IMG/VR virus record: IMGVR_UViG_3300033571_020726
Span: 16,739-80,738 of that record
DNA from: a virus
Reading direction: 5' to 3' (one strand)
Length of the DNA: 64,000 nucleotides
Part shown: positions 4,101 through 59,901 of the stretch, one piece after another
Position numbering within the stretch: position 1 is the first letter of the stretch
How the letters are laid out: the number at the start of each line of letters is the position of its first letter
Notes under the pieces: generated by a model
What the model was told of the DNA's origin: nothing
Databases searched by the model: none
What the model saw: only the letters and a program-made list of their open reading frames with translations
Made by a program: the position numbers and the translations under genes

Positions 4101-4146
4101 TAACATATATATAATAATTAAAATAATATTATAAGGAAATGAAATT

Positions 4147-5400: not shown

Positions 5401-5428
5401 TATTATAATTTAATTTTTTTAAAAATTT

Positions 5429-5477
5429 AAAACTTTATTTATGATATTTATTATCAAGTAATATAAATAAAGGTTTT
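5429..5477 (+). promoter_or_regulatory. Leader hairpin sequestering the ribosome binding site of the 5482 gene
   Basis: The arms AAAACTTTATTTAT (5429-5442) and ATAAATAAAGGTTTT (5463-5477) pair completely apart from one bulged G, with a 20-base loop. The right arm contains the AAAGG ribosome binding site for the ATG at 5482. Folding would hide the site, so translational control or coupling is plausible (inference). It could also act as a processing site or weak terminator, but there is no T-run directly after the stem. Confidence 0.5.
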
Positions 5478-5481
5478 TTAA

Positions 5482-6024: not shown

Positions 6025-6051
6025 AATATATATTTTAAAAAGGAGAAATAA

Positions 6052-6570
6052 ATGACATATTATTCAAATTTAGTTATGCCAAAAGATATAACATCACCAA
6101 CAGCAAGATATGGGCAAAGACCTAGCTTTTATTGGGCAGCTGGTCCTACATATAATGGACTTGATTTATTAGTATCTACATCTTTAACAACTACATATGT
6201 TAATTCAAACAATACTGTTTTAGGTAATACAATAACTAATTATACAGCAGATTATGCTAATTATATTATTGTAAATAATAACTCTAGTAATTGGGTTTTA
6301 ACATTACCATTAGGATATTTTACTGATACAGGTACTTGGCCAGGTGCATGTACTTTTCATCTAAATATTAAAAAAACAGGTACTGGTACATTAACAATTC
6401 AAACGCCAGCAGATACAATAGGTACAAGGATTAGAGGCATTAATTCAACAACAAATAAAAGTTATACATTGTCAGCTTCAACTGAACAGACAATTACATT
6501 AATTTATTCGTATGGGTACAATAGTTCTGGGAGCGTTGATTCAACAGCAGAAATTTGGTATACATTTTAA
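6052..6570 (+). CDS. Fibre-associated beta-module protein, paralogue of the next gene
   Basis: 172 residues, preceded by a strong AAGGAG site. Residues about 55-172 are clearly homologous to residues 60-185 of the following gene product. Both have N-Y/F-x-A-x-Y-x-NY, VNN, TLPxG, KKTGTGT, a TPAD or VPAD step, RGINSTTNK, and a YGYN...STAE-(I/V)-W ending. The duplicated module is the whole of this protein, whereas the next gene adds a LamG-like domain. No catalytic motif or signal peptide is visible. It sits in the fibre cluster, so it is most likely a virion surface or fibre-tip component that arose by tandem duplication. Specific binding function unknown. Confidence 0.6.
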   Translation: MTYYSNLVMPKDITSPTARYGQRPSFYWAAGPTYNGLDLLVSTSLTTTYVNSNNTVLGNTITNYTADYANYIIVNNNSSNWVLTLPLGYFTDTGTWPGACTFHLNIKKTGTGTLTIQTPADTIGTRIRGINSTTNKSYTLSASTEQTITLIYSYGYNSSGSVDSTAEIWYTF

Positions 6571-6588
6571 AATGTTTAGGAGATATTT

Positions 6589-7800
6589 ATGACTTACACA
6601 GGTAATATAACATCAAGCGGACTATGGCTAACAAGTGGTAGTACTTTACAGGCTTTATTAAGTAATAGTACAAAACGAAGTAATAGAATACCATTTTATA
6701 TTGTATCAAGTAGCACTGTTCAATCATTTTATTCGCTAGGCAATAGTGGCGGTTCAATAAGACAACCTAATATTATTACAACAACAACAGCCTTAGGATC
6801 GACAGTCACTAATTTTTATGCAGGATATAATAATTATTATCTTGTAAATAATTCAACAAATAATATTACAATCACATTACCTTCAGGAAATGGTTCTTCT
6901 TCAACACCGTTTTCTAACAATGCAATTGAATTAATGTTTAAAAAGACAGGTACAGGTACTGTAACATTAACAGTGCCAGCCGATTCTGCGAATCAAGTAA
7001 GAGGCATTAATTCAACAACAAATAAAAACTATGTTTTATCTTCAACAAATCAACAATGCGTTAGATTAATGTATACATACGGTTATAATGTTGATGGTAC
7101 AGCTAATTCAACAGCTGAAGTTTGGCATGTTATAAAAGCTGTTACACAAAATATAGTACCTGTAAATGGTAGCATTTTATTTGCTGGCACAACTTCTACT
7201 TATTTAACATTACCTGTAGATGATAATCAATTATCATTTAGGACAGGTGATTTTACAGTAGAATGGTGGCAATATCAAACAGATTCAAATGGTGCGCCTA
7301 GAGTTTTTTCATATGGTACATATCCTACTGCAACGTTTGGAGTTTCGATAGAAGGTGGCACTTTTTACTTATGGATTAATGGTGCTGCGAATAGTTTTGG
7401 CAGTGTAGGAACTTATAAAAATGTATTTACACATTTTGCTGTAACACGTTCTGGGACTACAATAAGGGTTTTTAAAAATGGTACGCAATTAGGTTCTAAT
7501 TTAACATCATCTTATGATTTTAATGATACAACTAATAATTTAAGAATTGGTAATGAACAATCATTGACTACTAATGCAGCATTTGGCGGAAATTTAAAAG
7601 GCTTTCATTGGGTAAAAGGTACGGCATTATATACATCAACTTTTACTCCTAACTATAATTCTATTTCGCCAGTTGCTGATACACATTTATTATTAAATGT
7701 CAGTGATTCTTCAAATTTAGTTACTGATAGTAGTGGATTAGGAAAAACAGTAACAAATACTGGCTGCACTTTTTCATCTATTACTCACCCTTTTTATTAA
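6589..7800 (+). CDS. Adhesin-like structural protein with C-terminal LamG/concanavalin-like domain
   Basis: 403 residues; TTTAGGAG lies about 8 bases before the ATG. Residues about 60-185 repeat the module that forms the previous gene product. Residues about 195-403 form a LamG/Laminin_G_3-like jelly roll: SILFAGTTSTYLTLP, FTVEWWQYQ, a FGVSIEGGTFYLWING strand pair, FTHFAVTRSGTTIRVFKNG, NLRIGNE, and a terminal strand with FTPNY. LamG-like folds in phage fibres usually bind glycans or act as particle-surface adhesins. It ends the fibre cluster. I am confident of the LamG-like call and infer surface glycan binding. Confidence 0.7.
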   Translation: MTYTGNITSSGLWLTSGSTLQALLSNSTKRSNRIPFYIVSSSTVQSFYSLGNSGGSIRQPNIITTTTALGSTVTNFYAGYNNYYLVNNSTNNITITLPSGNGSSSTPFSNNAIELMFKKTGTGTVTLTVPADSANQVRGINSTTNKNYVLSSTNQQCVRLMYTYGYNVDGTANSTAEVWHVIKAVTQNIVPVNGSILFAGTTSTYLTLPVDDNQLSFRTGDFTVEWWQYQTDSNGAPRVFSYGTYPTATFGVSIEGGTFYLWINGAANSFGSVGTYKNVFTHFAVTRSGTTIRVFKNGTQLGSNLTSSYDFNDTTNNLRIGNEQSLTTNAAFGGNLKGFHWVKGTALYTSTFTPNYNSISPVADTHLLLNVSDSSNLVTDSSGLGKTVTNTGCTFSSITHPFY

Positions 7801-7806
7801 TTTTTG

Positions 7807-7814
7807 TATAAATA
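7807..7814 (+). promoter_or_regulatory. Candidate T4-type late promoter (TATAAATA)
   Basis: An exact match to the T4 late -10 element TATAAATA, in a 74-base AT-rich gap 60 bases before the start of the nuclease gene at 7875. A gp55-like sigma factor is encoded 1.2 kb downstream, so such promoters are expected. At this base composition the octamer also occurs by chance, so the call rests on its intergenic placement. Confidence 0.4.
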
Positions 7815-7874
7815 TTTAATTTTTATTATAATTTATTTATATTTTACTAAATTTTATTTAAGGTTGATTATGAA

Positions 7875-8717
7875 ATGTCTATTTCTGTTAATTTATTAAA
7901 AGAACATGTTTCTTATTCTGAGGTTAAGGTGTGGAAAGAATGTTCTTGGAGGCATAAATTATTGTATTTAGATAAAATTGAGGTATTTGAGGAGAGTCCT
8001 CATTTATATTATGGATCTATTGTACATGATGCTGTTGAACATTTTTTAAATACAAAAGAATTGAAATTACAAGAAATGGAAGAAAATTTAAAAAAAGAGT
8101 GGGATAGAGTTGGTTTTGATGGTATATGGCGTGAAGAGCAGGAGAAGAAAAATAAGAATTATAAGCATATTGCATTTGAAAAATGGTTATTGTGGGCAAA
8201 AAATAGTATAAATGCTTTACCTAAATGGATGGATGAAAATTTTCCTTTATGGGAAACAGTATCTGCTGAAGAGTTATTATATGAAGAGATGAATGAATTA
8301 CCATTAAAATTTAAAGGATATATTGATTGTATTATTAAGATTCCTCAAAAGACAGAAGGAAAATGGAAATATTACATTTTAGATTGGAAAACAGCGTCAG
8401 CACGTGGTTGGGACTGGGAAAAGCAACAGGATTTTTTAACGCATATGCAATTGTTATTGTATAAAAATTTTTGGATGTTTAAAAATAATTTAACGTCACG
8501 TGATGTACAATGCGCATTTGTGTTATTGAAGAAAGTAGATAAAATAGAAAAAGTATGTCAGATGATATCGATAAGTTCAGGACCAAAAAGTATGGAAGAG
8601 GCTATGAAAGTTGTTAGATCTATGATTAAAAGTATTACCAAGGTTAATCCGACATATTTAAAAAATAAAACTTCGTGTCAATGGTGTCCTTTTTTTAATA
8701 CAGAGCATTGTAAATAA
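7875..8717 (+). CDS. PD-(D/E)XK nuclease, Cas4/AddB-like with probable iron-sulfur staple
   Basis: 280 residues. It reads as a RecB-family nuclease domain: GSIVHDAVEHFL with His51, GYIDCII with Asp151, LDWKTA with Asp170-x-Lys172, and a QLLLYKNF motif for the conserved Gln/Tyr helix. Cys23 near the N-terminus plus Cys268, Cys271 and Cys279 at the C-terminus reproduce the one-plus-three cysteine arrangement of 4Fe-4S-stapled exonucleases (Cas4, AddB, Cas4-like phage nucleases). Probable role: DNA end processing in recombination, repair or packaging; whether 5' or 3' exonuclease cannot be told. It opens the sigma-factor operon. The ATG at 7870 gives only a short frame, so 7875 is preferred; AAGG lies about 13 bases upstream. 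No CRISPR array is nearby. Confidence 0.8.
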   Translation: MSISVNLLKEHVSYSEVKVWKECSWRHKLLYLDKIEVFEESPHLYYGSIVHDAVEHFLNTKELKLQEMEENLKKEWDRVGFDGIWREEQEKKNKNYKHIAFEKWLLWAKNSINALPKWMDENFPLWETVSAEELLYEEMNELPLKFKGYIDCIIKIPQKTEGKWKYYILDWKTASARGWDWEKQQDFLTHMQLLLYKNFWMFKNNLTSRDVQCAFVLLKKVDKIEKVCQMISISSGPKSMEEAMKVVRSMIKSITKVNPTYLKNKTSCQWCPFFNTEHCK

Positions 8718-42130: not shown

Positions 42131-42160
42131 ATAATTTAATTAAAAATGGTTTTAAATTAT
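42131..42160 (+). promoter_or_regulatory. Hairpin overlapping the start codon of the RuvC-like gene
   Basis: The arms ATAATTTAA (42131-42139) and TTAAATTAT (42152-42160) are perfect inverted repeats around a 12-base loop. The right arm takes in the first two bases of the ATG at 42159. No good ribosome binding site is visible. All pairs are A-T, so it is weak; control of a replication gene embedded in late genes is a possible reason (inference). TATAAATT just upstream (42123-42130) resembles, but does not match, the late -10 octamer. Confidence 0.3.
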
Positions 42161-42734
42161 GATTCTAGGATTAGATATATCATCAAGTATAATAGGGATT
42201 TCTTTATTTGAAGACAACGGTATTTTGTATAAATTAGATTATATAGATTTACGTAAAATCGATAGCTTTTTTAAAAAAGCAGATTATGTTAGAGATAAAT
42301 TTAAAAAAATATTTGAATCTTTAGATGATAAAATTAATTTAATTTCCATTGAAGAGTGTGCTCAATCATTTCGAAAAGGTTTTTCTTCTGCACAAACATT
42401 ATCTACTTTAGCAAGATTTAATGGAGTTGTATCTCAGATCGCTTATGAGACATTCAAAGTCGAACCGTTATATTACAATGTCGTTTCATCACGCAAATCA
42501 TTGGGTATAAAACTGGATAAGTCTGGTGATATTGATACTAAGGAACAAATTGTTGCCTGGGTTTCTTTAAATGAAGTTGATTTTAAATGGCCAAAAAGAA
42601 GATTAACAAAAGGTAAAAATGTTGGAACAGAAATTTATGAACAATATTGTTATGACATGGCAGATGCCTATGTTATTGGAAAAATAGCAGTAAAACAACA
42701 TGCAAAAAACAATATCACTCAATCAAAAAATTGA
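42159..42734 (+). CDS. RuvC-like Holliday junction resolvase
   Basis: 191 residues with an RNase H-like fold pattern. The N-terminal strand ILGLDISSSIIGISLF carries Asp6; the second acid is in LISIEECAQSF (Glu65/Glu66); the C-terminal helix QYCYDMADAYVIGK supplies Asp166 and Asp169. This D...E...DxxD set is the RuvC metal-binding quartet. The FRKGFSSAQTLSTLARFNGV segment also fits RuvC-family resolvases of large phages. Likely role: cutting branched recombination intermediates before packaging, a job done in T4 by the unrelated gp49. It overlaps the primase gene by 35 bases and precedes the SbcD-SbcC fusion, forming a recombination/replication group. Confidence 0.8.
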   Translation: MILGLDISSSIIGISLFEDNGILYKLDYIDLRKIDSFFKKADYVRDKFKKIFESLDDKINLISIEECAQSFRKGFSSAQTLSTLARFNGVVSQIAYETFKVEPLYYNVVSSRKSLGIKLDKSGDIDTKEQIVAWVSLNEVDFKWPKRRLTKGKNVGTEIYEQYCYDMADAYVIGKIAVKQHAKNNITQSKN

Positions 42735-43710
42735 TTTTATAAAAAGTGTAGTCGAAAATTATAGACATTCAAATGGTAAAGAAGATATTGCTATTTGGTG
42801 CCCTTTTTGTCAAAATTCAAATAAAAATAAGTTGAAGATGGTTTTACAAATTGATAAAGGTATTTATCACTGTTGGGTTTGTAATGCAAAAGGAAACAAC
42901 ATACCTTTTTTAATTAGAAAAATAAATCCTTCAAAATATGAAGAAAGTCAAAAATTTTTTAATTCTTTTAAAAAAAAGGTAAATGAAGAATGGAATTTTA
43001 TTTTAAATGGATTAAATGATTTTAATAATGAAGAAGAAGTAAATGAAAAAGTAGTATTACCTTCTGAATTTGAATTATGTGCATCATTATTTACAAATGA
43101 AAATATTAGAAATCCTGATGTTCGTGATGTTATGAATTATCTTCGAAAAAGAGGGTGTTCTGAACATAAAATGTGGATGTTACGATTTGGAGTATCTAAA
43201 AATGATTCATGGCGTAGAATGTTGATAATCCCTTCTTTTTGTAAAAATGGTGAATTAAATTATTTTACTTGCAGAAAAATAGATGAATCAACTTTTTCAT
43301 CTATAAAATATAAAAACTGTGAAATAGAGAAGAAAAAAATAGTATTTAATGAGATTTTAATTGATTGGAATTTACCTTTAACATTAGTAGAAGGTCCATT
43401 AGATTTGTTAAAAACAAATGATAATGCGACATGTTTATTAGGTAGTACTCTGCCAAAAGACAGTTTGTTATTTAAAAGAATCGTTGAAAATAAAACGCCT
43501 GTTATATTAGCATTAGATAATGATGCATATAAAAAGGCTTTAAAAATAGCTGAGGATCTGATGGAATATGATGTATCAGTCAGTTTAATGGATACATCAT
43601 CTGCAAAAGATGTAGGTGATATGACAGAAAAAATGTTCGAAGAGCATTACAAAAGAGCTTGTAAAATAGATCAAGATGATTTATTATTAAACAAAATACA
43701 AATAATTTAA
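42700..43710 (+). CDS. gp61: DnaG-type DNA primase (gp61-like)
   Basis: 336 residues. The zinc-binding domain has Cys34-x2-Cys37 and Cys58-x2-Cys61 (WCPFCQ...YHCWVCNAKG), as in CHC2-type primases. The TOPRIM part has TLVEGPLDLLK (Glu231), GSTLPKDSL and VILALDNDAY (Asp273, Asp275), then a SVSLMDTSSAKDVGDM stretch that is the D-x-K/D-x-G-D end of primase TOPRIM domains. It overlaps the RuvC-like gene by 35 bases, and no other in-frame ATG precedes the zinc motif. Role: RNA primer synthesis for lagging-strand replication, expected with a DnaB-type helicase encoded elsewhere. Length is close to T4 gp61 (342 residues). Confidence 0.85.
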   Translation: MQKTISLNQKIDFIKSVVENYRHSNGKEDIAIWCPFCQNSNKNKLKMVLQIDKGIYHCWVCNAKGNNIPFLIRKINPSKYEESQKFFNSFKKKVNEEWNFILNGLNDFNNEEEVNEKVVLPSEFELCASLFTNENIRNPDVRDVMNYLRKRGCSEHKMWMLRFGVSKNDSWRRMLIIPSFCKNGELNYFTCRKIDESTFSSIKYKNCEIEKKKIVFNEILIDWNLPLTLVEGPLDLLKTNDNATCLLGSTLPKDSLLFKRIVENKTPVILALDNDAYKKALKIAEDLMEYDVSVSLMDTSSAKDVGDMTEKMFEEHYKRACKIDQDDLLLNKIQII

Positions 43711-43731: not shown

Positions 43732-46700
43732 ATGACATTTAAATGCATTCATATTGCAGATATTCATTTTAGAGGTCTACAAAGACACGAAGAATATAAA
43801 AATGTTTTTTCGAAATTTTTTGAAAAAGCAAAAGAATTAAAGCCTGATGTTATTTTTGTAGGTGGTGATATTGTTCATTCAAAAACGTCAGGCATTTCGC
43901 CTGAATTGATTGATACATTGAATTGGTGGTTTACAGGATTAGCATCAATTGCTCCTACGCATATTATTCTTGGAAATCATGATGGATTGATTCAAAATTT
44001 AAATAGATTAGATGCGATTACGCCTATTGTTGAAGCGTTAAATAACCCAGCATTATATTTGTATAAAAAAAGTGGTGTATATCAAACAGGTGTACAAGGA
44101 TTTAATTGGTGTGTATTTAGTTGCTTTGATCATGAAAATTGGTGTAATGTTTCACCTATAAATGGTGATATAAACATCGCTACATTTCATGGAGCAGTTA
44201 AAGGATGTACAACAGATGTAAATTGGGAATTAGAGGGTGAAGTAGATTTAAATTTTTTCGAAAAATTTGATTTTGCATTTCTAGGTGATATTCATAAAAT
44301 GCAATATTTAGATTTTGAACAAAAAATAGCATATTCAGGATCAACTATTCAACAAAATTTTGGTGAATCTGTTGATAAAGGATTTTTATTTTGGGAAATT
44401 GAATCAAAAAATAATTATAAATCAACTTTTTATACATTAGAAAATGAAAACAAATTTATTACAGTAAATTGGAATCAAGATTTTAATAAAACAATTGAAG
44501 AAATTAATAAATTACCTAATTTTTCAAGATTTCGTATTAAATCAGAACAACAATTAGATAAAAATGATGTTAAATTATTACAAAATTTTCTTAAAGAAAA
44601 TAAAAAAGCGTTAGAGGTTGTGTTTAAATATGAACATAACAAAAAAAATAATGATTGTATAGAAGATAAAAAAAAAAATTTTAATATATTAGATGATAAT
44701 ATTAGATTTAATATATTAAAATCATATTTTGATGAATCTGTAACAAATGAGCAAATTAATAATATAAATAATATTTTTAAAAATGCGATTGACAGATTAC
44801 AAGTTGATCAATATAGAAAATCAATATCATGGGAATTAAAAAATATTTCTTTCAATAATTTATTTTGTTATGGCGAAAATAATTTCTTAAATTTTGAAAA
44901 TATGAATGGAATAATTGGCGTTTTTGGTAAAAATGCATCAGGTAAATCATCAATACCTGGTTCTTTAATGTATTCATTATTTAATACAACTGACCGTGGT
45001 TCTATGAAAAATCTACATATTATGAATACACGAAAAGAAGATTGTAGTTCAAAGGTTGAAATTTTGGTTAACAATCAAAAATATTTAATTGAAAGAAATA
45101 CCAAAAAATCTTATACAAAAAAGAAAAATGAAGTAAATACATCAACAAATTTAAGTATTTTTAAAGTAAATGATAATGGTGTTTTAATAAATGAAACTGA
45201 TGAACAGCGTCGTGAAACAGAAAAAATATTAAAAGATTTAATAGGTACATCAGAAGATTTTTTAATGACATCTTTTGCTTCTCAAGGCAATATTAATGCT
45301 TTTATTGGTGAAAAAAGTGCAAATAGAAAATATTTTTTATCTAAATTTATGAATCTAGATATTTTTGAAGAGATTGGTAAATTAATTAAAGATGATTCAG
45401 CTGATTTAAAAGCAGAGTTAAAAGTTTTTAATCAAAAAAATTGGGTTGATTTAATTAATAAATCAAATCATGAAATAAATGAAAATTTGATTAAAATATC
45501 TGAACTTGAAGCAAATTTACAAACTTTTAAACAAAAGCAATTGGATTTATCAATTGATTTAGAAAATATTAAAAGTAAGAATCATGATTTAAATAAAATA
45601 AAAGTGATTGAAGATGAAATTAAATTATTATCTATCAATATTGATAAAGAAAATAAAAATTTAGTAAAAATTGATACAGATTGTGAACAAATTCAACAAA
45701 AAATAGAAAAATTTGATGTATTAAAATCACAAATAGATTTGAATCAATTGAAAAAAGACAAAGAAAGATTAATAAATTTAAAATCACAACTGACGATAAA
45801 TATTTCGCAAATAGATAATTTAAAATCTGATATTGAAAAAAGAAAAAATGCTCATAAATTATTATCAAGTGTACCATGTGGTGACAGTTTTCCTTCATGC
45901 AGATTTATAAAAAATGCATATGAAGATTTTAAAAATATTTCTGACAATGAGGATTCATTAAAAAATCTTGAGAAATCTATTATTGAATTGAAAAATATTG
46001 TAACAGAACTTGAACGTGAACAAATTCAACAAAAAATAGAAAAATTTGAAGAATTTTCAATTAAAAATGAACAAAATGTCTTTCAATTATCAGTATTATT
46101 AGAAAATAAAGATTCAATAACACAAAAAATATCTGAGCTGCTGAATCGGTTTAATGATCTAAATAATAAGTTACAACATATGACGCAGTTAATTGACAAA
46201 AATGATGCTAACATTATAAAAGAATATCAAACAGAGTTAGAATCTATTAAAAATAAAATACAAATGACTGATATCTCTATTGTAAAATATATGGGTAATA
46301 ATCAGTATTTATCACAAATGATTGAAAAATATAGGGTTGAAGAGATTCAATATAACGATTTATTAAGTCAATGGAGATTATATGAATTATTGTTAAATGC
46401 TGTTTCAAAAAAGGGTTTACCATCAAAATTACTTAAAGAAATGTTACCTTCATTAAATAATGAAATCAAAGAAATCCTAACAGATGTTGTTGAATTTTCT
46501 GTTGATATAGAAATAGATGATGATGATCTTGAAATTTATATCAATTATAATGGAGATAAAAGAATCATAGAAACAGCGTCTGGAATGGAAAAAATGATTA
46601 CATCAATGGCAATTCGAGTTGCTTTAACAAATATTAGCAATTTACCTAAATCTAATATTTTTATAATAGATGAAGGTTTTGGAGCATTGGATGATACAAA

Positions 46701-46851
46701 TATTATATCTTGTATAAAATTATTAAATAACTTTAAAAAGTTTTTTAAAACAATATTAATCATATCACATATTGATATTATTAAAGATGTTGTAGATAAT
46801 AACTTATGTATTGAAAATGAGGGTTTAGATTCTTATGTTAGATTTGAATAA
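43732..46851 (+). CDS. gp47-gp46: Single-chain SbcD-SbcC (Mre11-Rad50; gp47-gp46) nuclease-ATPase fusion
   Basis: 1039 residues in one frame. Residues 1-250 are an Mre11/SbcD phosphoesterase with all metal motifs: ADIHFRG (Asp10, His12), GGDIVHS (Asp46), LGNHDG (Asn82-His83), TFHGAVKG (His153), LGDIHKM (Asp186, His188). From about residue 365 a Rad50/SbcC ATPase begins: Walker A GKNASGKS (399-406), coiled coil with an apex CGDSFPSC (Cys716, Cys723), signature TASGMEKM, Walker B IFIIDEGFGALDD (Asp980, Glu981), and a switch His in ISHIDI. T4 and bacteria use two genes (47/46; sbcD/sbcC). The fusion may fix the 1:1 ratio. Role: processing of double-strand ends for recombination-dependent replication. 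Its 3' end overlaps the next gene by 17 bases. Confidence 0.9.
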   Translation: MTFKCIHIADIHFRGLQRHEEYKNVFSKFFEKAKELKPDVIFVGGDIVHSKTSGISPELIDTLNWWFTGLASIAPTHIILGNHDGLIQNLNRLDAITPIVEALNNPALYLYKKSGVYQTGVQGFNWCVFSCFDHENWCNVSPINGDINIATFHGAVKGCTTDVNWELEGEVDLNFFEKFDFAFLGDIHKMQYLDFEQKIAYSGSTIQQNFGESVDKGFLFWEIESKNNYKSTFYTLENENKFITVNWNQDFNKTIEEINKLPNFSRFRIKSEQQLDKNDVKLLQNFLKENKKALEVVFKYEHNKKNNDCIEDKKKNFNILDDNIRFNILKSYFDESVTNEQINNINNIFKNAIDRLQVDQYRKSISWELKNISFNNLFCYGENNFLNFENMNGIIGVFGKNASGKSSIPGSLMYSLFNTTDRGSMKNLHIMNTRKEDCSSKVEILVNNQKYLIERNTKKSYTKKKNEVNTSTNLSIFKVNDNGVLINETDEQRRETEKILKDLIGTSEDFLMTSFASQGNINAFIGEKSANRKYFLSKFMNLDIFEEIGKLIKDDSADLKAELKVFNQKNWVDLINKSNHEINENLIKISELEANLQTFKQKQLDLSIDLENIKSKNHDLNKIKVIEDEIKLLSINIDKENKNLVKIDTDCEQIQQKIEKFDVLKSQIDLNQLKKDKERLINLKSQLTINISQIDNLKSDIEKRKNAHKLLSSVPCGDSFPSCRFIKNAYEDFKNISDNEDSLKNLEKSIIELKNIVTELEREQIQQKIEKFEEFSIKNEQNVFQLSVLLENKDSITQKISELLNRFNDLNNKLQHMTQLIDKNDANIIKEYQTELESIKNKIQMTDISIVKYMGNNQYLSQMIEKYRVEEIQYNDLLSQWRLYELLLNAVSKKGLPSKLLKEMLPSLNNEIKEILTDVVEFSVDIEIDDDDLEIYINYNGDKRIIETASGMEKMITSMAIRVALTNISNLPKSNIFIIDEGFGALDDTNIISCIKLLNNFKKFFKTILIISHIDIIKDVVDNNLCIENEGLDSYVRFE

Positions 46852-47482: not shown

Positions 47483-49108
47483 ATGTCAATTAAACAGCAA
47501 CAGATAGATGAAATAGTAAAATGTGGTAAAGATCCAGCTTATTTTATCAATAAATATTTAAAAATAGAACACCCATTACAAGGTTTAATACCTTTTAAAA
47601 CATATGATTTTCAAAATGATTGTTTAGATGATTTTAATAAAAATCGTTTTAATATTATTTTAAAAAGTCGTCAATTAGGTATTTCTACTATCGTTGCTGC
47701 TTATGCAATTTGGAATGCTTTATTTTATAAAAATAAAAATATTTTAATTATTGCTACTAAATTAGCTGTAGCACAAAACTTTGTTAAAAAAGTAAAAGTT
47801 GCTATTCAAGCATTACCTCCATGGTTAATTCAATTTGCACCAATAACATCAAATAATAAACAACAAGTTGTATTTAAAAACGGTTCTTCAATTAAAGCGA
47901 TACCTACTTCTGAAGACGCTGGTCGTTCAGAAGCTTTGTCTCTTTTAATTATTGATGAAGCTGCATTTGTAAGAAATTTTGATGAATTATGGACTGGTCT
48001 TTATCCTACACTATCTACTGGTGGTAGAGCTATTATTCTTTCAACACCGAATGGCGTTGGTGGACAATATTACGATTTATGGATAGGTGCAGAACAAAAA
48101 ACAAACGAATTTAATCCTATAAAATTAAAATGGGATGTACATCCAGATCGCGATGAATCTTGGTTTGAAAATGAAACAAGAAATATGTCATCAAAACAAA
48201 TTGCACAAGAATTATTATGCGATTTTGCAGCATCAGGTGATACATTTTTCCAATCAGAAGAAATTGACTGGTTAAGATCAAGAACTAAATCTCCTATTGA
48301 AATGACAGGACCAAATCAAGATGTATGGATATGGAAATATCCTAGAGAAGGACATAAATACGTTTTATCTGCAGATGTTGCACGTGGTGATGGTGCAGAT
48401 TCAAGTGTGTTTCATATTATAAACATCGATACGAAATCAGTTGATGTTGAATACAAAGGAAAATTAACGCCTGATAATTTTTCTCAATTAATTTATGATT
48501 GGGCTAGAAGATATAATAAAGCATTGGTATGCCCTGAAAATAATACTTATGGTTATATGATTTTATCTAAATTAAATGATTTAGGTTATTTAAATTTTTA
48601 TTTTGAAAATGAGAGAATGAAATACGAGTATTTGTATTCAGTTGAAAAATCAGAATATATTTCTAAAGCAGGATTCAGCACTCAAAAAGATAGTCGTGCA
48701 AAAATTTTATCAAATTTAGAAGAAATTGTCAGAAATAAAAGATATGAAATGAATTCTATACGTTTATTTGATGAATTTAAAACTTTTGTATGGTTAAATA
48801 ATAAACCAGTCGCAATGAAAGATCATCATGATGATGCAATTATGTCTTGCGCAATTGGTTTATGGATTGCTGAAAAATATGGTTCAAAAATTACATCTAC
48901 AGAGACTTCTACTGCACATGAAATTTTAAAAGGCATGAAAATAAATCAAACATCAACAGAACAAACTATTATTAGCCCTTATTATAATAATCACTTGTCA
49001 AAACAAGTGAATCCATTTTTACCAGTGCCAATGTCTGATAGTATAATTGATATAGGTCAAAGTAAAAAAATATCAGCTTTAGGCGATTTTTCTTGGTTAG
49101 TTAAATAA
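47483..49108 (+). CDS. gp17: Large terminase subunit (gp17-like packaging ATPase-nuclease)
   Basis: 541 residues. ATPase domain: NIILKSRQLGISTIVAAYAI at the Walker A position (SRQLGIST, 62-69; T4 has SRQLGKTT), Walker B LLIIDEAAF (Asp158, Glu159), and a following ILSTPNG coupling motif. RNase H-like nuclease domain: LSADVARGDGADSS (Asp298) and KDHHDDAIMS (Asp450/Asp451). The order and spacing fit gp17-type terminases. The lysine in the usual P-loop position is replaced by Ile, leaving Arg63 as the nearest basic residue; deviant P-loops are known among terminases. Role: translocates concatemeric DNA into proheads and cuts it. Followed by portal, as in T4-like packaging clusters. Confidence 0.9.
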   Translation: MSIKQQQIDEIVKCGKDPAYFINKYLKIEHPLQGLIPFKTYDFQNDCLDDFNKNRFNIILKSRQLGISTIVAAYAIWNALFYKNKNILIIATKLAVAQNFVKKVKVAIQALPPWLIQFAPITSNNKQQVVFKNGSSIKAIPTSEDAGRSEALSLLIIDEAAFVRNFDELWTGLYPTLSTGGRAIILSTPNGVGGQYYDLWIGAEQKTNEFNPIKLKWDVHPDRDESWFENETRNMSSKQIAQELLCDFAASGDTFFQSEEIDWLRSRTKSPIEMTGPNQDVWIWKYPREGHKYVLSADVARGDGADSSVFHIINIDTKSVDVEYKGKLTPDNFSQLIYDWARRYNKALVCPENNTYGYMILSKLNDLGYLNFYFENERMKYEYLYSVEKSEYISKAGFSTQKDSRAKILSNLEEIVRNKRYEMNSIRLFDEFKTFVWLNNKPVAMKDHHDDAIMSCAIGLWIAEKYGSKITSTETSTAHEILKGMKINQTSTEQTIISPYYNNHLSKQVNPFLPVPMSDSIIDIGQSKKISALGDFSWLVK

Positions 49109-49172: not shown

Positions 49173-51155
49173 ATGGCAAAAGAAGATAGTTTATTTAAAA
49201 AATTAACAGATTTATTTAGATCAGGACCAACTGTAAGGAAAAAAGTTAAAGCAGCTGCACATAAAAAGACGGGAAGTCCTAGTAGTCTTGATTTATTTAA
49301 AAAAAATCACAGTGATGTATATAATTCAACGATTTCAGCATATGGTTCATATGATCGTATGGCACGTTATTCAGATTTCAGTGAAATGGAATCTACACCT
49401 GAATTATCAAGTGCATTAGACATATATGCTGAAGAAACAGTATCTGCTGACAGTTATGGTAAAGTATTACATATTTATTCTGAAAATCGTAAAATTAAAC
49501 AATTATTAGAAAATTTATTTTATGATGTATTAAATGTTGAATTTAATTTGGTAATGTGGGTAAGAAATTTATGTAAATATGGCGATTTTTTCTTATTTAA
49601 TGATGTATCACCTGACTTTGGTGTAATAAATGTATTTCCTATTCCTATTGCTGAAATTGAAAGAGAAGAAGGATTTGATCCTAATGATCCTTCAGCTGTA
49701 CGTTTTCGTTGGATTACACAAGGAAATAGAATTCTAGAAAATTGGCAAATCAGTCATTTCAGATTATTAGGAAATGACGCATTTCTCCCGTATGGATCAT
49801 CAGTATTAGAAGGCGCACGTCGTATTTGGCGTCAATTAATTTTAATAGAAGATGCAATGTTGGTTTATCGCGTTATTCGTGCGCCTGAACGACGTGTTTT
49901 TTATATTGATGTTGGTAATATTCCACCTGAAAATATTGGCGATTATTTACAACAAGCACAAACGTCTTTGAAAAGAAATACTGTTGTAGATAAAACATCA
50001 GGCAAAGTAGATTTAAGATATAATCCACTATCTGTTGATGAAGATTATTTCTTGCCAGTTAGAGGTGGAGATACAGGCACAAAAATTGATACATTGGCAG
50101 GTGGTCAAAATACATCTGCTATTGAAGATGTAGAATATATTCAAAAAAAGTTATTTGCAGCATTAAAAATACCTAAGTCTTATTTAGGTTATGATGAAGA
50201 AATAGGTAGCAAGTCTACATTGGCGCAAGAAGATATCAGATTCAGTCGAACGATTCAAAGAGTTCAAAAAACAGTGTTGTCTGAATTAAATAAATTAGCG
50301 ATGATTCATTTATATTCACATGGTTATAATGAAGATGATTTGCTAGATTTTGAAATCAAATTATCAAATCCTTCAAGTATTGCGCAACAGCAAAAATTAG
50401 AGTTAATAAAAACAAAATTTGATATTGCATCATCTGTTCCAGAAGGTTTAGTTGATCAGGAATGGATTGCAAAAAATATCATGGAATTTAATAATGATGA
50501 AATAGCGCGTATTAAAAAAGGTAAAGTACAAGATAAAATTGATAATCTTAAACTTGAAGCTGTTGCATTACCTTCAGGCGATAATACAGTTGAAGGTGGT
50601 GAAGCAGGTGGTGAAGCAGGCGGCGCTGGCGGTGAAGCAGGTGGAGCTCCACCACCTGGAGGTGATGCAGGCGGCGGATTAGCTGATTTATTCGCTGGTG
50701 ATGTTAAATTAGGTTCTTTATTAGCCGAAGATGATTTAGAGGAGCAAGATGATTTATTATTTGGTGACGAAGTTATGAATTATGGAAAAATTAAGCCAAA
50801 AGGATCTAAAGATTATAAAAAACATAGCATAGGTAGAGATGTATCTGGTAAAAAAGATGTTGATAGTGCAATTAGATATGATTCAACATCAGATTTATAT
50901 GGATCATTAGGAGATAATAATAGAGGTATTACTGGGGGTTTAACTGTAACTAGTAATGATTTCAAATTAAGTAAAAGTGATATAAATCCTTTAAATTCAT
51001 CATATAATAGATCAACAGATAATCAAATGAAAAAAATATTTGATTCGATGAATAGAAATTTTGGTGATAAATTAACAATTAGCAAAAATAAATCATCTAA
51101 TTTATTAAATGAAGATAGTGAATTAATAATTATTGATAATGAAAACGAGGAATAA
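49173..51155 (+). CDS. gp20: Portal protein (gp20-like) with Gly/Glu/Ala-rich tail
   Basis: 660 residues. The N-terminal part has YGSYDRMARYSDFSEMESTP and ELSSALDIYAEETVSADSYG, an opening typical of gp20 portals. The stem and clip regions show FRLLGNDAFLPYGSSVLEGA, RRIWRQLILIEDAMLVYRVI, RAPERRVFYIDVGN, and LKIPKSYLGYDEEIGSK. These motifs are strongly conserved in T4-like portals. Residues about 474-505 are low-complexity GGEAGG/APPPGG repeats, followed by an acidic tail with LLAEDDLEEQDDLL. Role: 12-fold ring at the head vertex, DNA channel and docking for the terminase. The C-terminal extension beyond the portal core is unusual and may be disordered. Confidence 0.9.
   Translation: MAKEDSLFKKLTDLFRSGPTVRKKVKAAAHKKTGSPSSLDLFKKNHSDVYNSTISAYGSYDRMARYSDFSEMESTPELSSALDIYAEETVSADSYGKVLHIYSENRKIKQLLENLFYDVLNVEFNLVMWVRNLCKYGDFFLFNDVSPDFGVINVFPIPIAEIEREEGFDPNDPSAVRFRWITQGNRILENWQISHFRLLGNDAFLPYGSSVLEGARRIWRQLILIEDAMLVYRVIRAPERRVFYIDVGNIPPENIGDYLQQAQTSLKRNTVVDKTSGKVDLRYNPLSVDEDYFLPVRGGDTGTKIDTLAGGQNTSAIEDVEYIQKKLFAALKIPKSYLGYDEEIGSKSTLAQEDIRFSRTIQRVQKTVLSELNKLAMIHLYSHGYNEDDLLDFEIKLSNPSSIAQQQKLELIKTKFDIASSVPEGLVDQEWIAKNIMEFNNDEIARIKKGKVQDKIDNLKLEAVALPSGDNTVEGGEAGGEAGGAGGEAGGAPPPGGDAGGGLADLFAGDVKLGSLLAEDDLEEQDDLLFGDEVMNYGKIKPKGSKDYKKHSIGRDVSGKKDVDSAIRYDSTSDLYGSLGDNNRGITGGLTVTSNDFKLSKSDINPLNSSYNRSTDNQMKKIFDSMNRNFGDKLTISKNKSSNLLNEDSELIIIDNENEE
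50592..50690 (+). repeat. GC-rich low-complexity coding repeat in the portal gene
   Basis: About 100 bases of GGT/GGC-GAA-GCA units encode GGEAGG and APPPGG repeats, far more G/C-rich than anything around. A perfect 14-base palindrome GGTGGAGCTCCACC lies at 50640-50653. It could form a stable mRNA hairpin within the portal coding sequence. Most likely a slippage-grown linker. Confidence 0.7.
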
Positions 51156-51163
51156 AACTAATA

Positions 51164-52021
51164 ATGAAAAATAGAAGCCACAATAAAAAAAGAAATGTCG
51201 GCATCATATATGAACAGTTGATTAATTATATGTGTAAATGTATAATTGATAATAATGAAAATGGTGTTTCGAAAATAAGCAATGTCATAAAGGAAAATTT
51301 TAAAAAAGAAACTCAATTACATAGAGAACTAAAATTTTTTAATGCATTAATCCAAACAAAAGGTATTGATCCTAGTTTAGCGACAAATATTATTCAAGAA
51401 GCAAAAAAATCTTGTCAAAAACATTTTTCTGAAGATGATTTAGAAAAAGAAAAATCTGTTTTAATAAAAGAATTAAATTATTCTTTTGGTAAAGGAAATA
51501 TATTTGAAGCAAAGGTTAAAAACTATAAAATGTTAGCAACTGTACAGACATTATTAAATGAATGGCGAAAAGGTTCAAATTCAGACTTTCAAATTACAAC
51601 GCAATATGAAAAACAATTACATGAATGGATGACAGAAAAAGCAGATGAATCAACCCAATTAAATGAAACATATGTACCTAAAAATGTTGATGAATTAACT
51701 TTTAGAATCATGAATCAAAAATTTAATAAAAAATATGATAAAATATTGAACGATGATCAAAAAAAATTAATAAAGCTATTCGTAGAAAATAAATCAGATA
51801 CAAACATAGAACTAACTAATTTATTTGATGAAATAAAAATAAAATCAATTAAGCTATTGGAATCTTTTAATTGCAATAATAAAATTTTAAATGAAAGATA
51901 TGATATAGTTAAAAATAATGTAAAAGCTATTAGCATAAAAGATATTTCTGAAGAAAATCTTAAAAAGTTTTTAACTTTATGCAAATTAAACGACGAATTA
52001 AAAGGTGATATAAATGAGTAG
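51164..52021 (+). CDS. Unrecognised head-region protein between portal and protease
   Basis: 285 residues, mainly helical and Lys/Glu/Asn-rich. Segments: NVGIIYEQLINYMCKCIIDN, HRELKFFNALIQTKGIDPSL and YKMLATVQTLLNEWRKGSNS. No known motif. The 3' end overlaps the protease start by 8 bases. T4 has small prohead core genes (67, 68) between genes 20 and 21; this protein is larger and not recognisably related, but the place is the same, so a prohead core or portal-associated role is a reasonable inference. GAGGA at the end of the portal gene serves as ribosome binding site. Confidence 0.5.
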   Translation: MKNRSHNKKRNVGIIYEQLINYMCKCIIDNNENGVSKISNVIKENFKKETQLHRELKFFNALIQTKGIDPSLATNIIQEAKKSCQKHFSEDDLEKEKSVLIKELNYSFGKGNIFEAKVKNYKMLATVQTLLNEWRKGSNSDFQITTQYEKQLHEWMTEKADESTQLNETYVPKNVDELTFRIMNQKFNKKYDKILNDDQKKLIKLFVENKSDTNIELTNLFDEIKIKSIKLLESFNCNNKILNERYDIVKNNVKAISIKDISEENLKKFLTLCKLNDELKGDINE

Positions 52022-52622
52022 ATTATTAACTGAATGGCTTTCTTTTGATTATGATAAAAAATTGATTCAAGAGGCTAAAATTGGTGGTGGGCCACTAATA
52101 ATGAAAGGTATTTTACAAAAGGCAGATACACTTAATCAAAATGGTCGTGTATATCCAAGAATTATTCTTGAACGTGAAGTTAGAAACTATCAAAAATTTA
52201 TTAAAGAAAATAGAGCATTAGGCGAATTAGATCATCCCGATAGTTCTGTCGTTGAATTAAAAAATGCATCTCATATTATTAGAGAAGCGCATATGGAAGG
52301 TAATATTTGTTATGGTACTGTTGAAATATTAAATACACCATCAGGTAAAATATTACAATCTTTAGTAGAAAGTGGCGTTACACTAGGTATTTCATCAAGA
52401 GGTGTGGGTTCTACAAAACCACAAGGTGAATTACAAATAGTACAAGATGATTTTCAATTAATTTGTTGGGATTTTGTATCAGAACCATCAACACCTGGTG
52501 CCTTTATGATGAAAGAAGGAAAAGAAATTTCATCGAAACAATTACAAGAAATTAATTCATCATTTTTTAACAAAAGTGATAGAATTTATAGAATATTTAA
52601 TGAAATAGGAGATTGGAAATAA
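52014..52622 (+). CDS. gp21: Prohead core protease (gp21-like)
   Basis: 202 residues. It carries the gp21/S78 serine protease pattern: GILQKADTLNQNGRVYPRII, RALGELDHPDSS with His74, and VTLGISSRGVGS with Ser126 or Ser127 as nucleophile, then a VSEPSTPGAF segment. T4 gp21 has ALGELNHP and IPGVSSRGLGS at the same places. Role: after prohead assembly it degrades the scaffold and trims capsid and internal proteins at (L/I)-x-E sites. Candidate sites are seen in neighbouring products. The gene overlaps the previous one by 8 bases and abuts the next (TAA then ATG). Slightly shorter than T4 gp21 (212). Confidence 0.9.
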   Translation: MSRLLTEWLSFDYDKKLIQEAKIGGGPLIMKGILQKADTLNQNGRVYPRIILEREVRNYQKFIKENRALGELDHPDSSVVELKNASHIIREAHMEGNICYGTVEILNTPSGKILQSLVESGVTLGISSRGVGSTKPQGELQIVQDDFQLICWDFVSEPSTPGAFMMKEGKEISSKQLQEINSSFFNKSDRIYRIFNEIGDWK

Positions 52623-56101: not shown

Positions 56102-57952
56102 ATGACAAGTAGTTTATTTAATGAAGCGTTAGATGATGCAAAAGCAATAAAAGCTGCTGCTGAAGAACGTGCAAAACAACAGTTGTTAGAAACAATGTCT
56201 CCTAAGTTAAAGAAAATCGTTGAAAATACAATCAATCAACAAATGGGATTATCAGAAGATGAAAACGAAGCATTTTCTGATGAATATGCTAATGATGAGC
56301 TTAATAAACTATCATTAAATGATTCTGACCATTTTGATGAAGATGAATCTGACATGTATCAAGAATCTGATGATATTGAAGAATGTGGATCAGGAATGTA
56401 TCAAGAATCAGAATTTTCTAATAAAGGTAAAAACTCTAAACAACAAAATGAGGCAAAGGAAGTATTAAGTATTCTTTTAAATAAAGATGTTTTAAAAAGA
56501 AATCTTAAAAACGAAGTAAATAATTTTGAAAAAGATGTAAATAGTCTAAAAAGAATGTTTAATTTACTTGAAAATCATAAGGTAAATGCTCAAACAGTTC
56601 AAAAAGTTGACAAAACATTATTAAAATTAGTTGAAAATTCAAAAAATATCGCAAGTAACGATATAATTAAAAATCAAACAGAAATAAAAAAACAATTTAG
56701 TATATCATTACAGGAGTTAAACCAAATGACAAAACGTAGAAATAATATTTTAGCAGAAAACTATTCATCACTATCTAGAAGATCTAGACGCCTTTTTGAG
56801 GCTGAAGATGAACAAGAAGATGAAGATATGGGTGGTATGGAAGATATGGAAGGTATGGAAGGTATGGGTGGTGATGAAGATGAAGATATGGGCGGTATGG
56901 AAGATATGGGTGGTATGGAAGATATGGGCGATGATTTATCTGGCACAGATGCACAAACATTAAAGGATATTGCTGAAAAAATTGAAAAAATGGTTGGTGG
57001 CGGAATGGGCAGCGATGAAGATATGGAAGGCATGGACGATATGGATGATGAAGATATGGAAGATATGGGCGATATGGGTGATGAAGAAGATGAAGATGAA
57101 GATGAACCTAAAACTGAATGGTCTCGTAGACGTGGTCGTTTGTTTGCAGAATCTGATGATGATTTAGAAGAAAGTGATGATGAAAAATTTGAATATGATC
57201 AAATGTCTGAATCGGATTTCTTTTATGAAGCAGATAAAAAAGGCAAAAAAGGTAAGATCCCTCCTCAATTCTTAAAAGGTAAAAAAGGTAAATCATCTAA
57301 AGAAGAAGAAGATGTAAAGGAATCCCAAAGACGTCGTGGTGATGTTTTCTTAGAAATTGATGAAAACATGCTTAAACGTGAAATTGCCAGAATGAAGAGA
57401 TTACGCGAAGGTGATGCTGAAGATATGGCTTCTCACTTTGGCGGTGGCAAAATTGAAAGAGAAATGTTTGTAGATTCAGATGATGGAGATTTGAATGGTA
57501 ATGTAGGAAATCTTGGAAGTTTCCCTTCAAAGGGTCGATTAAAAGAAGGTCGTTCTTATAATAGTAACAGTGAAACTCGTTTACTCGAAGGAAAAGTTCA
57601 AAAGTACGAAAGAGCATTAACCGGCATGAAAGGTCAATTATCAGAAATGACACTATTCAATGCTAAACTCCTTTATGCGAATAAATTAATGCAAAACAGA
57701 GATCTTACAAATTCTCAACAACGTCATATTGTTGAAAGTTTAGATCAAGCTAAGACACTCAGAGAAGCAAAATTACTTTTTGAAGGTTTAAGTAAGAGCT
57801 TACTCAAGGGAACAGGTCGTTCTGGTTCTCTTAATGAAAGCGCAAATCGCAGAATTACTGGCGGTTCAAGCAGATCAACTTCTAGTGCACAATCATCACA
57901 AAATAGAATTGAAACTGACCGTTGGGCATTATTAGCAGGTATCAAGAAGTAA
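56102..57952 (+). CDS. gp22: Prohead core scaffold (gp22-like) with acidic Gly/Met repeats
   Basis: 616 residues, directly upstream of the capsid gene as in T4. The N-terminal helix has LDDAKAIKAAAEERAKQQLL. A coiled-coil part (about 125-220) follows, then a long acidic Met/Gly/Asp repeat (237-337). The C-terminal part contains ALTGMKGQLSEMTLFNAKLL, then YANKLMQNRDLTNSQQRHIV, LREAKLLFEGL: the conserved scaffold ending next to gp23 in T4-like phages. Boxes of Arg-rich residues followed by F/L-x-E recur: RRSRRLFEAEDE, RRRGRLFAESDD, RRRGDVFLEIDE, plus RLKEG, RLLEG and SLNES. These fit gp21 cleavage for scaffold removal. Longer than T4 gp22 (269) because of the inserted repeats. Confidence 0.8.
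   Translation: MTSSLFNEALDDAKAIKAAAEERAKQQLLETMSPKLKKIVENTINQQMGLSEDENEAFSDEYANDELNKLSLNDSDHFDEDESDMYQESDDIEECGSGMYQESEFSNKGKNSKQQNEAKEVLSILLNKDVLKRNLKNEVNNFEKDVNSLKRMFNLLENHKVNAQTVQKVDKTLLKLVENSKNIASNDIIKNQTEIKKQFSISLQELNQMTKRRNNILAENYSSLSRRSRRLFEAEDEQEDEDMGGMEDMEGMEGMGGDEDEDMGGMEDMGGMEDMGDDLSGTDAQTLKDIAEKIEKMVGGGMGSDEDMEGMDDMDDEDMEDMGDMGDEEDEDEDEPKTEWSRRRGRLFAESDDDLEESDDEKFEYDQMSESDFFYEADKKGKKGKIPPQFLKGKKGKSSKEEEDVKESQRRRGDVFLEIDENMLKREIARMKRLREGDAEDMASHFGGGKIEREMFVDSDDGDLNGNVGNLGSFPSKGRLKEGRSYNSNSETRLLEGKVQKYERALTGMKGQLSEMTLFNAKLLYANKLMQNRDLTNSQQRHIVESLDQAKTLREAKLLFEGLSKSLLKGTGRSGSLNESANRRITGGSSRSTSSAQSSQNRIETDRWALLAGIKK
56811..57110 (+). repeat. Acidic Met/Gly coding repeat in the scaffold gene
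   Basis: Degenerate units around GAT-ATG-GGT-GGT-ATG-GAA encode DMGGME, DMEGME and EDMEDMGD repeats over about 100 codons. Unit order varies and there are no spacers, so this is an in-frame, slippage-prone coding repeat and not a CRISPR or origin iteron. The resulting segment is strongly acidic, suggesting a flexible core filler or basic-partner binding. Confidence 0.75.
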
Positions 57953-58050: not shown

Positions 58051-59901
58051 ATGTCAAGTTATACATTACAATCATTAACTGAAGGTATCAGACAACGTCA
58101 CGTTGGTACACAAAATAAAAGATTAGTCGAAAAGTGGTCACGTACAGGTCTTCTTAGAGGTCTTGACGATGTAAATCGTGAAAATATGTCTCAACTTTTA
58201 GAAAATCAAGCATCACAACTTCTTCGTGAATCAAATACACTCGGAAGTGATGCTGTTAAAGGTTTCACAAGCATTGCATTCCCAATCGTTCGTCGCGTAT
58301 TCGGTGGTCTAGTAGCTAATGAATTAGTTTCAATTCAACCAATGAGCCTTCCTTCCGGTCTTCTATTTTATCTAGATTATACATACGGTTCAAATGTTGG
58401 TGGTGATCAAAGCAGCACTGCTAATGCAGATGCTACAGCAACATATAAATCTGGTGAATCTATTTATAATAATCCTACTGGAAAAGATATTCAAAAAGGT
58501 TCTTTTGCAAATGGTGGTCAATATGATTTATTAGGTTCAGGTTTTTCAAAAGTGCATAGTTCTGCACCAAATGTTGCAACTACTGTTATTGTTACATCAG
58601 CTGGCGCAAAAGATGCAGCAGGCGCTTTACAAACATTAGATTTAACAAATGCAACAGTACAAAAGTTATTACAATTTGATCAACAAGTGTTAGATTCAGG
58701 AACTGATTGGTCTGGTATATTAATTCCTACTAGTGCTTTAACTGATTTAGATAAAAGTCATGTGAAAGAAATTAATTTACATGGCTTCGCAACTGGAACT
58801 GCTCCTGCTGATTTAACAACAGCGTATCAATCAGGAAAAGCTAAAAATTTACGTAGATTAAATCAATTAGTAAAAGTAGACGGTACTACAATTACACCTG
58901 ATTTCTTTAATCCTAATCACGTTTTATGCATTGTAAAAAAAGCAGCTTGGGATTCATCAGCAGTGGGAGCTAATGTTGATGTTTCTTATGTAAAAGAAGA
59001 ATCAATTAGTATAACAGGTAGTGGTAATCCAGAAACTGTTATCAAACCTGATTTTGAATCAAATTTTGATGGCGATGATGCTGGTAAAATGGGTGGAGCT
59101 GGTATTACACCTGTAATTCCTGAAATTGATATTAAGATTGAGTCAATTCCAGTGACTACCACAACACGTAAGTTAAGAGCTCGTTGGTCACCCGAACTTG
59201 CGCAAGATCTTAATGCATATCATTCATTGGATGCTGAAGTTGAATTAACTCAAATTCTTTCTGAACAAATTGCATTGGAAATTGATCGTGAGATTTTGAA
59301 TGATCTTTTGACACAAGCTCAAGGTGCAAACTTCTTCTGGTCACGTGCTCCTGGTAAGTTTGTGAATAAGAGAACTGGTGCTGAAATTGCTCGTGTATCA
59401 ACATTGACACCTGGACCTGCATTTACTGGTACAGTTCGTGAATGGTATGAAACATTGACTGAAACCATTATTGACGTTGCAAATGAAATTCATAGAAAGA
59501 CATTACGTGGTTCAGCAAACTTTATCGTTGTATCACCTGATGTTGCTACAGTATTGGAAGCATCTGTATTGTATCGTCCTTCATATTCAATTGATGGTGA
59601 TGGTCAAGTTGCAACACCATTTACAATGGGTGCAGAGAAGATTGGTACATTGAGTAATCGTTTTACTGTATATAAGGATCCATATTTCCCAAGAAATAAG
59701 ATTCTTGTTGGTTACAAGGGTGGTAGCTATCTTGAAACTGGGTTTGTATATGCTCCTTATGTTCCATTGATCGTTACTCCTACCATTTTTGCTCCAGAAG
59801 ATTTTACACCTCGTAAGGGCGTAATGACACGTTATGGTAAGAAGATGGTACGTGCAGATTTTTATGGTACAGTAACATGTATGGATATGAATATTATTTA
59901 A
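58051..59901 (+). CDS. gp23: Major capsid protein (gp23-like)
   Basis: 616 residues. The N-terminal propeptide ends at QLLRE-SN: an (L/I)-x-E site with Glu60, closely matching T4 gp23, which is cut after residue 65. The mature start, VKGFTSIAFPIVRRVFGGLV, then ANELVSIQPMSLPSGLLFYL, is typical of gp23. The C-terminal half has IPVTTTTRKLRARWSPELAQ, DLNAYHSLDAEVELTQILSE and FIVVSPDVATVLEASV. T4 gp23 has 521 residues; the extra lies mainly between about 115 and 340, a variable Ser/Gly/Asp insertion that may be surface-exposed. Codon use is the least AT-biased in the window, fitting very high expression. HK97-fold hexamer-forming shell protein; followed by a strong terminator. Confidence 0.93.
   Translation: MSSYTLQSLTEGIRQRHVGTQNKRLVEKWSRTGLLRGLDDVNRENMSQLLENQASQLLRESNTLGSDAVKGFTSIAFPIVRRVFGGLVANELVSIQPMSLPSGLLFYLDYTYGSNVGGDQSSTANADATATYKSGESIYNNPTGKDIQKGSFANGGQYDLLGSGFSKVHSSAPNVATTVIVTSAGAKDAAGALQTLDLTNATVQKLLQFDQQVLDSGTDWSGILIPTSALTDLDKSHVKEINLHGFATGTAPADLTTAYQSGKAKNLRRLNQLVKVDGTTITPDFFNPNHVLCIVKKAAWDSSAVGANVDVSYVKEESISITGSGNPETVIKPDFESNFDGDDAGKMGGAGITPVIPEIDIKIESIPVTTTTRKLRARWSPELAQDLNAYHSLDAEVELTQILSEQIALEIDREILNDLLTQAQGANFFWSRAPGKFVNKRTGAEIARVSTLTPGPAFTGTVREWYETLTETIIDVANEIHRKTLRGSANFIVVSPDVATVLEASVLYRPSYSIDGDGQVATPFTMGAEKIGTLSNRFTVYKDPYFPRNKILVGYKGGSYLETGFVYAPYVPLIVTPTIFAPEDFTPRKGVMTRYGKKMVRADFYGTVTCMDMNII

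Follow-up and report, generated by a model that had tools for sequence, protein, structure and literature searches.

In a tailed phage, one gene encodes both the DNA-break nuclease SbcD and the motor protein that partners it, SbcC, in a single chain. It lies in the window, the 64,000-nucleotide stretch of DNA analysed here, which corresponds to bases 16739 to 80738 of a linear virus record of 80,738 bases. The gene occupies a single open frame that starts with ATG and runs for 1039 codons without an internal stop; the preliminary description had likewise reported one frame of 1039 residues. From N- to C-terminus the protein comprises an SbcD/Mre11 phosphoesterase, a capping domain, a helix-loop-helix, a linker of about 10 residues and a full SbcC/Rad50 ATPase, its coiled coil and hook included (Table 1), an N-terminal Mre11/SbcD phosphoesterase joined to a C-terminal Rad50/SbcC ATPase in one uninterrupted chain being what defines the known fusion family (PMC3175470). 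The product is very probably a single-chain gp47/gp46-type SbcCD (Mre11-Rad50) complex acting as an end-processing nuclease in recombination or replication, a reading based on the single frame, the two complete domain sets, the conservation of both the fusion and its junction length, and the resolvase, primase and terminase genes nearby. The Mre11/Rad50 fusion itself is not new; giant viruses and a large group of environmental phages normally have the protein in this form.

Family searches divide the chain in the same way. Pfam places Metallophos at residues 4-189 (E 4e-10) and AAA_23 at residues 372-602 (E 2e-6), while in PHROGs the SbcD-like phrog_100 covers residues 1-350 (E 2e-26) and the SbcC-like phrog_77 residues 229-1036 (E 4e-47). 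Matches to the NCBIfam sbcc and sbcd subfamilies fell far under the curated cut-offs, as is to be expected since the phage protein is divergent. No second SbcC or SbcD match was found in the whole 80.7-kb record. Together with the structural matches described below, these searches bear out the earlier claim that SbcD and SbcC are present in one 1039-residue polypeptide.

Table 1. Features of the SbcD-SbcC fusion gene and of its neighbours, in window coordinates.
Feature	Coordinates	Strand	Basis or remark
RuvC-like Holliday junction resolvase	42159..42734	+	phrog_159, E 1e-9; upstream of fusion in 91 loci
DNA primase (zinc ribbon/Toprim type), directly upstream of fusion	42700..43710	+	phrog_47, E 3e-34
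SbcD-SbcC (Mre11-Rad50) fusion protein	43732..46851	+	1039 aa; ORF, Pfam, PHROGs, AlphaFold2 model, structural matches
SbcD/Mre11 phosphoesterase domain, residues ~1-240	43732..44451	+	Pfam Metallophos; SbcD/Mre11 chain matches over 1-300, Z 23-25
Metal motif I, D10-x-H12	43759..43767	+	invariant in 53 aligned relatives
Metal motif II, GD-x-x-H, residues 45-49 (D46, H49)	43864..43878	+	invariant in 53 aligned
Metal motif III, GNHD, residues 81-84	43972..43983	+	invariant in 53 aligned relatives
Metal motif IV, H153-G154	44188..44193	+	invariant in 53 aligned relatives
Metal motif V, GDIH, residues 185-188 (D186, H188)	44284..44295	+	GDIH in 53/53 aligned
Capping domain, residues ~241-300	44452..44631	+	predicted beta-alpha-beta-alpha-beta; SbcD/Mre11 structural matches reach 299-303
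Flexible linker, residues 303-319	44638..44688	+	pLDDT <50 at 303-314
Two helices, 322-332 and 339-355, presumed Rad50-binding helix-loop-helix of Mre11	44695..44796	+	AlphaFold2 model
Fusion junction, residues ~356-365, ahead of first Rad50 strand	44797..44826	+	structural alignment of model
SbcC/Rad50 N-terminal ATPase lobe, Walker A (399-407), Q518	44827..45357	+	Pfam, alignment, model, structural matches
Outgoing coiled coil, residues 543-713	45358..45870	+	AlphaFold2 model
Hook, C716-GDSFPS-C723 (C-x6-C)	45877..45900	+	C-x6-C in 46/53 aligned fusions
Returning coiled coil, residues 724-891	45901..46404	+	AlphaFold2 model
SbcC/Rad50 C-terminal ATPase lobe: SGMEK (950-954), Walker B (976-981), D-loop, H1013	46405..46848	+	alignment, model, structural matches
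Terminase large subunit, downstream neighbour	47483..49108	+	Pfam Terminase_6N; present in 100 related loci
Portal	49173-51155		head/packaging genes after module
Head maturation protease	52014-52622		head/packaging genes after module
Major head protein	58051-59901		head/packaging genes after module

An alignment of the window protein with 51 fused relatives (52 sequences in all) was the basis of the AlphaFold2 model, which has a mean pLDDT of 85 and a pTM of 0.51 and, being of a single chain, carries no information on the dimer. Residues 1 to about 303 match SbcD/Mre11 of S. aureus, E. coli and T. maritima over 270-290 residues (Z 23-25, rmsd ~3 Å) and residues 365-1039 match SbcC/Rad50 heads with Z up to 28.9, residues 365-367 falling where the chains of E. 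coli SbcC and of archaeal and Thermotoga Rad50 begin in the structural alignment. By their position in the predicted model the two helices between these halves are presumed to be the Rad50-binding helix-loop-helix of Mre11; a sequence search with the helix-loop-helix alone gave chance matches only, none of them to a solved structure. In the model the second helix and the first Rad50 strand are about 10 residues apart. From the T. maritima complex it was estimated that 9-12 residues would span the 28 Å from the Mre11 C-terminus to the Rad50 N-terminus (PMC3175470), such that the junction fits the natural complex, with capping domain, helix-loop-helix (identified by its position in the predicted model) and a linker in the 9-12-residue range all present. 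In the 53-member alignment the distance from the invariant R268 to the invariant W367 is near-constant at 99-111 residues.

The record is a metagenome-derived viral contig, and T4 and the Herelleviridae carry nearby but separate sbcD and sbcC genes, in keeping with which the fusion might have been an artefact of assembly or sequencing joining two adjacent genes; the preliminary description had named a sequencing error joining two frames, or homologues with separate genes and a conserved stop at the junction, as results that would count against it, and had proposed a comparison with related phages. A scan of viral contigs with the window protein as a single sequence found no relatives, its patterns being too specific, while an alignment-led scan of the same contigs confirmed at least 579, of which the best 80 were retained. 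These 80 come from different metagenomes and are 31-42% identical to the window protein. In 79 of the best 80 of at least 579 the match is uninterrupted in one frame, and the remaining one (L067) also has an intact fusion, of 1058 aa, so that all 80 carry the fusion. Since the ranking of the first scan favours full-length matches, viral contigs and bacterial and archaeal genome contigs were rescanned with the SbcD half alone, using query patterns that derive from fused members and thus provide no survey of all phage SbcD genes; the gene was fused at all 69 untruncated loci, among which no separate-gene relative with a conserved stop was found, and the other six loci reach the contig end. In plasmids no place covering 80% of the fusion protein was found. 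Sequencing error is rejected as the cause, since relatives conserve the fusion in one frame, and no sign of such an error was seen. With the near-constant junction length and the presence of the fusion in Microcystis phage Mel-JY01 and Tenacibaculum phage PTm1, an artefact has next to no probability and is regarded as already refuted by the independent homologues.

A genuine fusion could still be accompanied by a separate SbcC, made by an internal start or by proteolysis, with free SbcC and the fusion together forming the working complex. When in-frame ATG, GTG and TTG codons near the junction were considered, GTG 297 was found to have an upstream GAGGT, and residues 303-314, predicted to be disordered, could be cleaved. 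However, the GAGGT lies merely 1 nt from GTG 297, and ATG 391 and ATG 413 fall within the ATPase core without a Shine-Dalgarno-like sequence and as starts would delete the first strands of that core, such that a separate SbcC has no plausible internal start. This agrees with the earlier reading that the junction has no start with a good ribosome binding site, although the test is a weak one because the phage's own starts, that of the fusion gene included, often have no Shine-Dalgarno-like sequence, and with start signals generally weak in this phage the start-codon argument is not decisive. A separately made SbcC is considered improbable.

In the nuclease half the five metal motifs claimed in the preliminary description are all present but the fifth deviates, with Asp replacing the first His of the canonical Mre11 GHxH throughout the fusion family. 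D10, H12, D46, N82, H83, H153, D186 and H188 are invariant in the 53-member alignment, and GDIH was found in 115 of 115 non-identical fusions, in a selection that admitted either GDIH or GHIH. The SbcD proteins of T4, E. coli, S-SKS1, the Herelleviridae and MTATph1 have GHxH. The window protein shares its Asp with the R555-like subgroup of fusions, Mimivirus R555 having Asp242 where motif V would have its first His (PMC3175470). As a mark exclusive to fused genes GDIH was rejected, since Erwinia phage KEY, whose genes are split, has GDLH in its SbcD. With Asp instead of His in motif V, the nuclease chemistry of the fusion may differ from that of the canonical enzyme.

The replacement of GHIH by GDIH could also mean that the nuclease is silenced by the Asp, leaving an SMC-like protein that tethers or structures DNA or takes part in conflict between phages or with the host, and the PADLOC model for LmuB (Lamassu SMC-like) does match the ATPase half with an E-value of 2e-21. 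Asp is, however, a usual metal ligand, and the strict conservation of the metal-binding positions, the Asp included, points to a working site rather than decay. The LmuB match is also far exceeded by the PHROGs SbcC match at 4e-47, and the neighbours are replication and packaging genes rather than a defence island, making a silenced nuclease of this kind highly improbable. Membership of Lamassu LmuB was itself rejected, the similarity to LmuB being weak and the neighbours being resolvase, primase and terminase rather than the LmuA effector beside which LmuB lies in a defence locus.

The ATPase half of the single-chain SbcCD has the complete SbcC/Rad50 motif set (Walker A, Q-loop, signature, Walker B, D-loop and His switch) on two lobes with an antiparallel coiled coil. 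The Walker A, signature and Walker B motifs reported earlier were all located, as GKNASGKSS, SGMEK and IFIIDE respectively, together with Q518 and H1013, and G404, K405, S950, G951, E953, D980, E981, D987 and H1013 are invariant in the 53-member alignment. In nearly all fusions examined the signature is SGME or SGAE, as opposed to the textbook SGGE. In place of the CxxC zinc hook of SbcC/Rad50 the window protein has C716-x6-C723, and C-x6-C also predominates in the larger fusion set, most members of the clade having the hook motif PCGDxFPxCKF; the deeper fused branches (Mel-JY01, PTm1 and relatives) and most split phage SbcC proteins have CxxC. Two loci within the C-x6-C clade (L068 and L082) have a CxxC hook like that of the Mel-JY01 group, which suggests hook exchange.

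The GDIH motif (also in R555), the SG(M/A)E signature and the mostly C-x6-C hook are the less well described details of the fusion. It is a tentative and rather doubtful proposal that on these three features the large phage clade forms a distinct type of single-chain Mre11-Rad50, the Asp of GDIH lying in its second metal site; if true, such a type could have another metal preference or cleavage chemistry and another mode of apex dimerisation than the two-gene enzymes.

Mre11/Rad50 fusions were reported in 2011 from Mimivirus, Bacillus phage 0305phi8-36, plasmids, bacteria and eukaryotes, with abundant marine R555-like sequences attributed to phages and neighbouring primases on some of the scaffolds (Yoshida et al., 2011; PMC3175470). 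As such fusions are published and also present in the named phages Mel-JY01 and PTm1, the window protein joins a known family, and the novelty implied in the preliminary description does not hold. The best full-length structural matches in BFVD were fusion-length proteins of Tupanvirus, Yasminevirus and Harvfovirus (E 1e-56 to 5e-54), the next after these Mimivirus-like giant viruses being Tenacibaculum phages pT24 and PTm1. Mimivirus R555, known here by its published description, has the same nuclease-then-ATPase order in one chain and the motif V Asp, but at 1351 aa with a longer coiled coil it exceeds the 1039 aa found here, and the window gene has a tailed-phage context of resolvase, primase and terminase. 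The Mel-JY01 protein (WWT39521.1, 1066 aa, annotated 'AAA domain containing protein') is likewise encoded by a fused gene in a complete genome, with GDIH and a primase almost directly upstream, although it is only ~29% identical and has a CxxC rather than a C-x6-C hook. The PTm1 protein (BBI90467.1, 1318 aa, annotated 'DNA repair exonuclease') also comes from a fused gene with GDIH in a complete named genome, but is longer, very divergent and again has a CxxC hook. The statement that the subunits are separate in T4, bacteria and archaea is correct for T4 and E. coli. T4 gp47/gp46 and the SbcD/SbcC of the Herelleviridae have both domain sets and a presumed role in recombination-dependent replication and end processing, but they are encoded by two genes, with GHxH in motif V and a CxxC hook. 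The folds of E. coli SbcCD match those of the fusion (SbcC head Z 28.9, SbcD Z 24.7), while E. coli differs in having two genes, much longer coiled coils, a CPLC hook and GHIH in motif V.

A quick tree was built from 53 sequences, 46 of them fused and 7 split, with a single cellular sequence among them and R555 absent. One branch with SH-aLRT 100 divides fused from split, which fits a single origin of the sampled phage fusions, but several long branches meet in the tree, and the fused state or concatenation may bias the alignment. For the placement of the published fusion family outside the canonical cellular SbcCD/MR clades, the tree offers that one cellular sequence as reference. Over a wider set, fusions were concluded to have arisen several times (PMC3175470).

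In 117 of the 140 related loci having upstream sequence, the gene immediately before the fusion, on the same strand, encodes a primase, and the resolvase, primase, terminase and portal neighbours suit a role of the fusion in recombination, replication and packaging. The dimeric form, the enzymatic activity and this role would follow those of the SbcCD and T4 gp46/gp47 families. By analogy, two chains would dimerise via their phosphoesterase domains and ATPase heads to give the 2:2 nuclease:ATPase head of the two-gene complex, and their coiled coils would meet at the cysteine hook. Binding and hydrolysis of ATP would then gate the access of DNA ends to the phosphoesterase site, where ends would be resected or clipped for recombination, recombination-dependent replication or packaging, as with T4 gp46/gp47. 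Fusion would preserve the 1:1 ratio and hold the SbcD helix-loop-helix beside the base of the SbcC coiled coil, its required binding place. The architecture, the domain order and the idea of a covalent complex put forward earlier are supported by the single frame in 79 of the best 80 of at least 579 relatives.

Across a large group of environmental tailed phages SbcD and SbcC are regularly fused, and the fusion is no oddity of a single contig; this supports the view put forward in 2011 that Mre11/Rad50 fusions reside mainly in viruses (PMC3175470). With its ~1040 residues and fixed 1:1 ratio, a single-chain complex could also serve conveniently as a model in structural studies of Mre11-Rad50.

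Among the head genes of the window, an ORF of 616 aa at 56102-57952 equals the adjacent major head protein in length but is unrelated in sequence; it has an acidic Met/Asp/Glu-rich stretch and no family match.

The nearest sequence to the window protein is on contig L095 (55% identity). Among genome contigs the nearest is L160 (PBIO01000013.1, a 108.9-kb contig of a Halobacteriovorax MAG), with an SbcD half 61% identical and a terminase (56%) and portal (75% over 452 residues) also shared with the window phage. This is a hint at a host in the Halobacteriovorax group, possible but unproven, as a binned contig does not establish the host. On a contig labelled as a 2.8-Mb WOR-3 MAG chromosome (L166, CP070664.1) a phage module of RuvC-like, primase and SbcD-SbcC genes at 2479-8055 abuts a stretch read as X beside unrelated genes, which suggests a scaffold gap or mis-join rather than a prophage.

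Two related loci carry additional ORFs in or beside the fusion, and neither gave an Rfam match to a group I intron at the gathering score. In the 484-kb phage L003 (LR756508.1, 5935-10160) the fused gene is interrupted just past GDIHK by ~1 kb, which may be an intron, another removable element or a disruption of the gene; the 305-aa ORF within it has a TnsA-like endonuclease domain and cysteines resembling those of a zinc ribbon. In L067 the intact fusion is directly followed, at 6939-7905, by a GIY-YIG/NUMOD3 homing-endonuclease-like ORF and then by a repeat of the ~60 C-terminal residues of the fusion (LDEPATALDEENMEGF...), an arrangement that looks like insertion of the endonuclease with partial duplication of its target.
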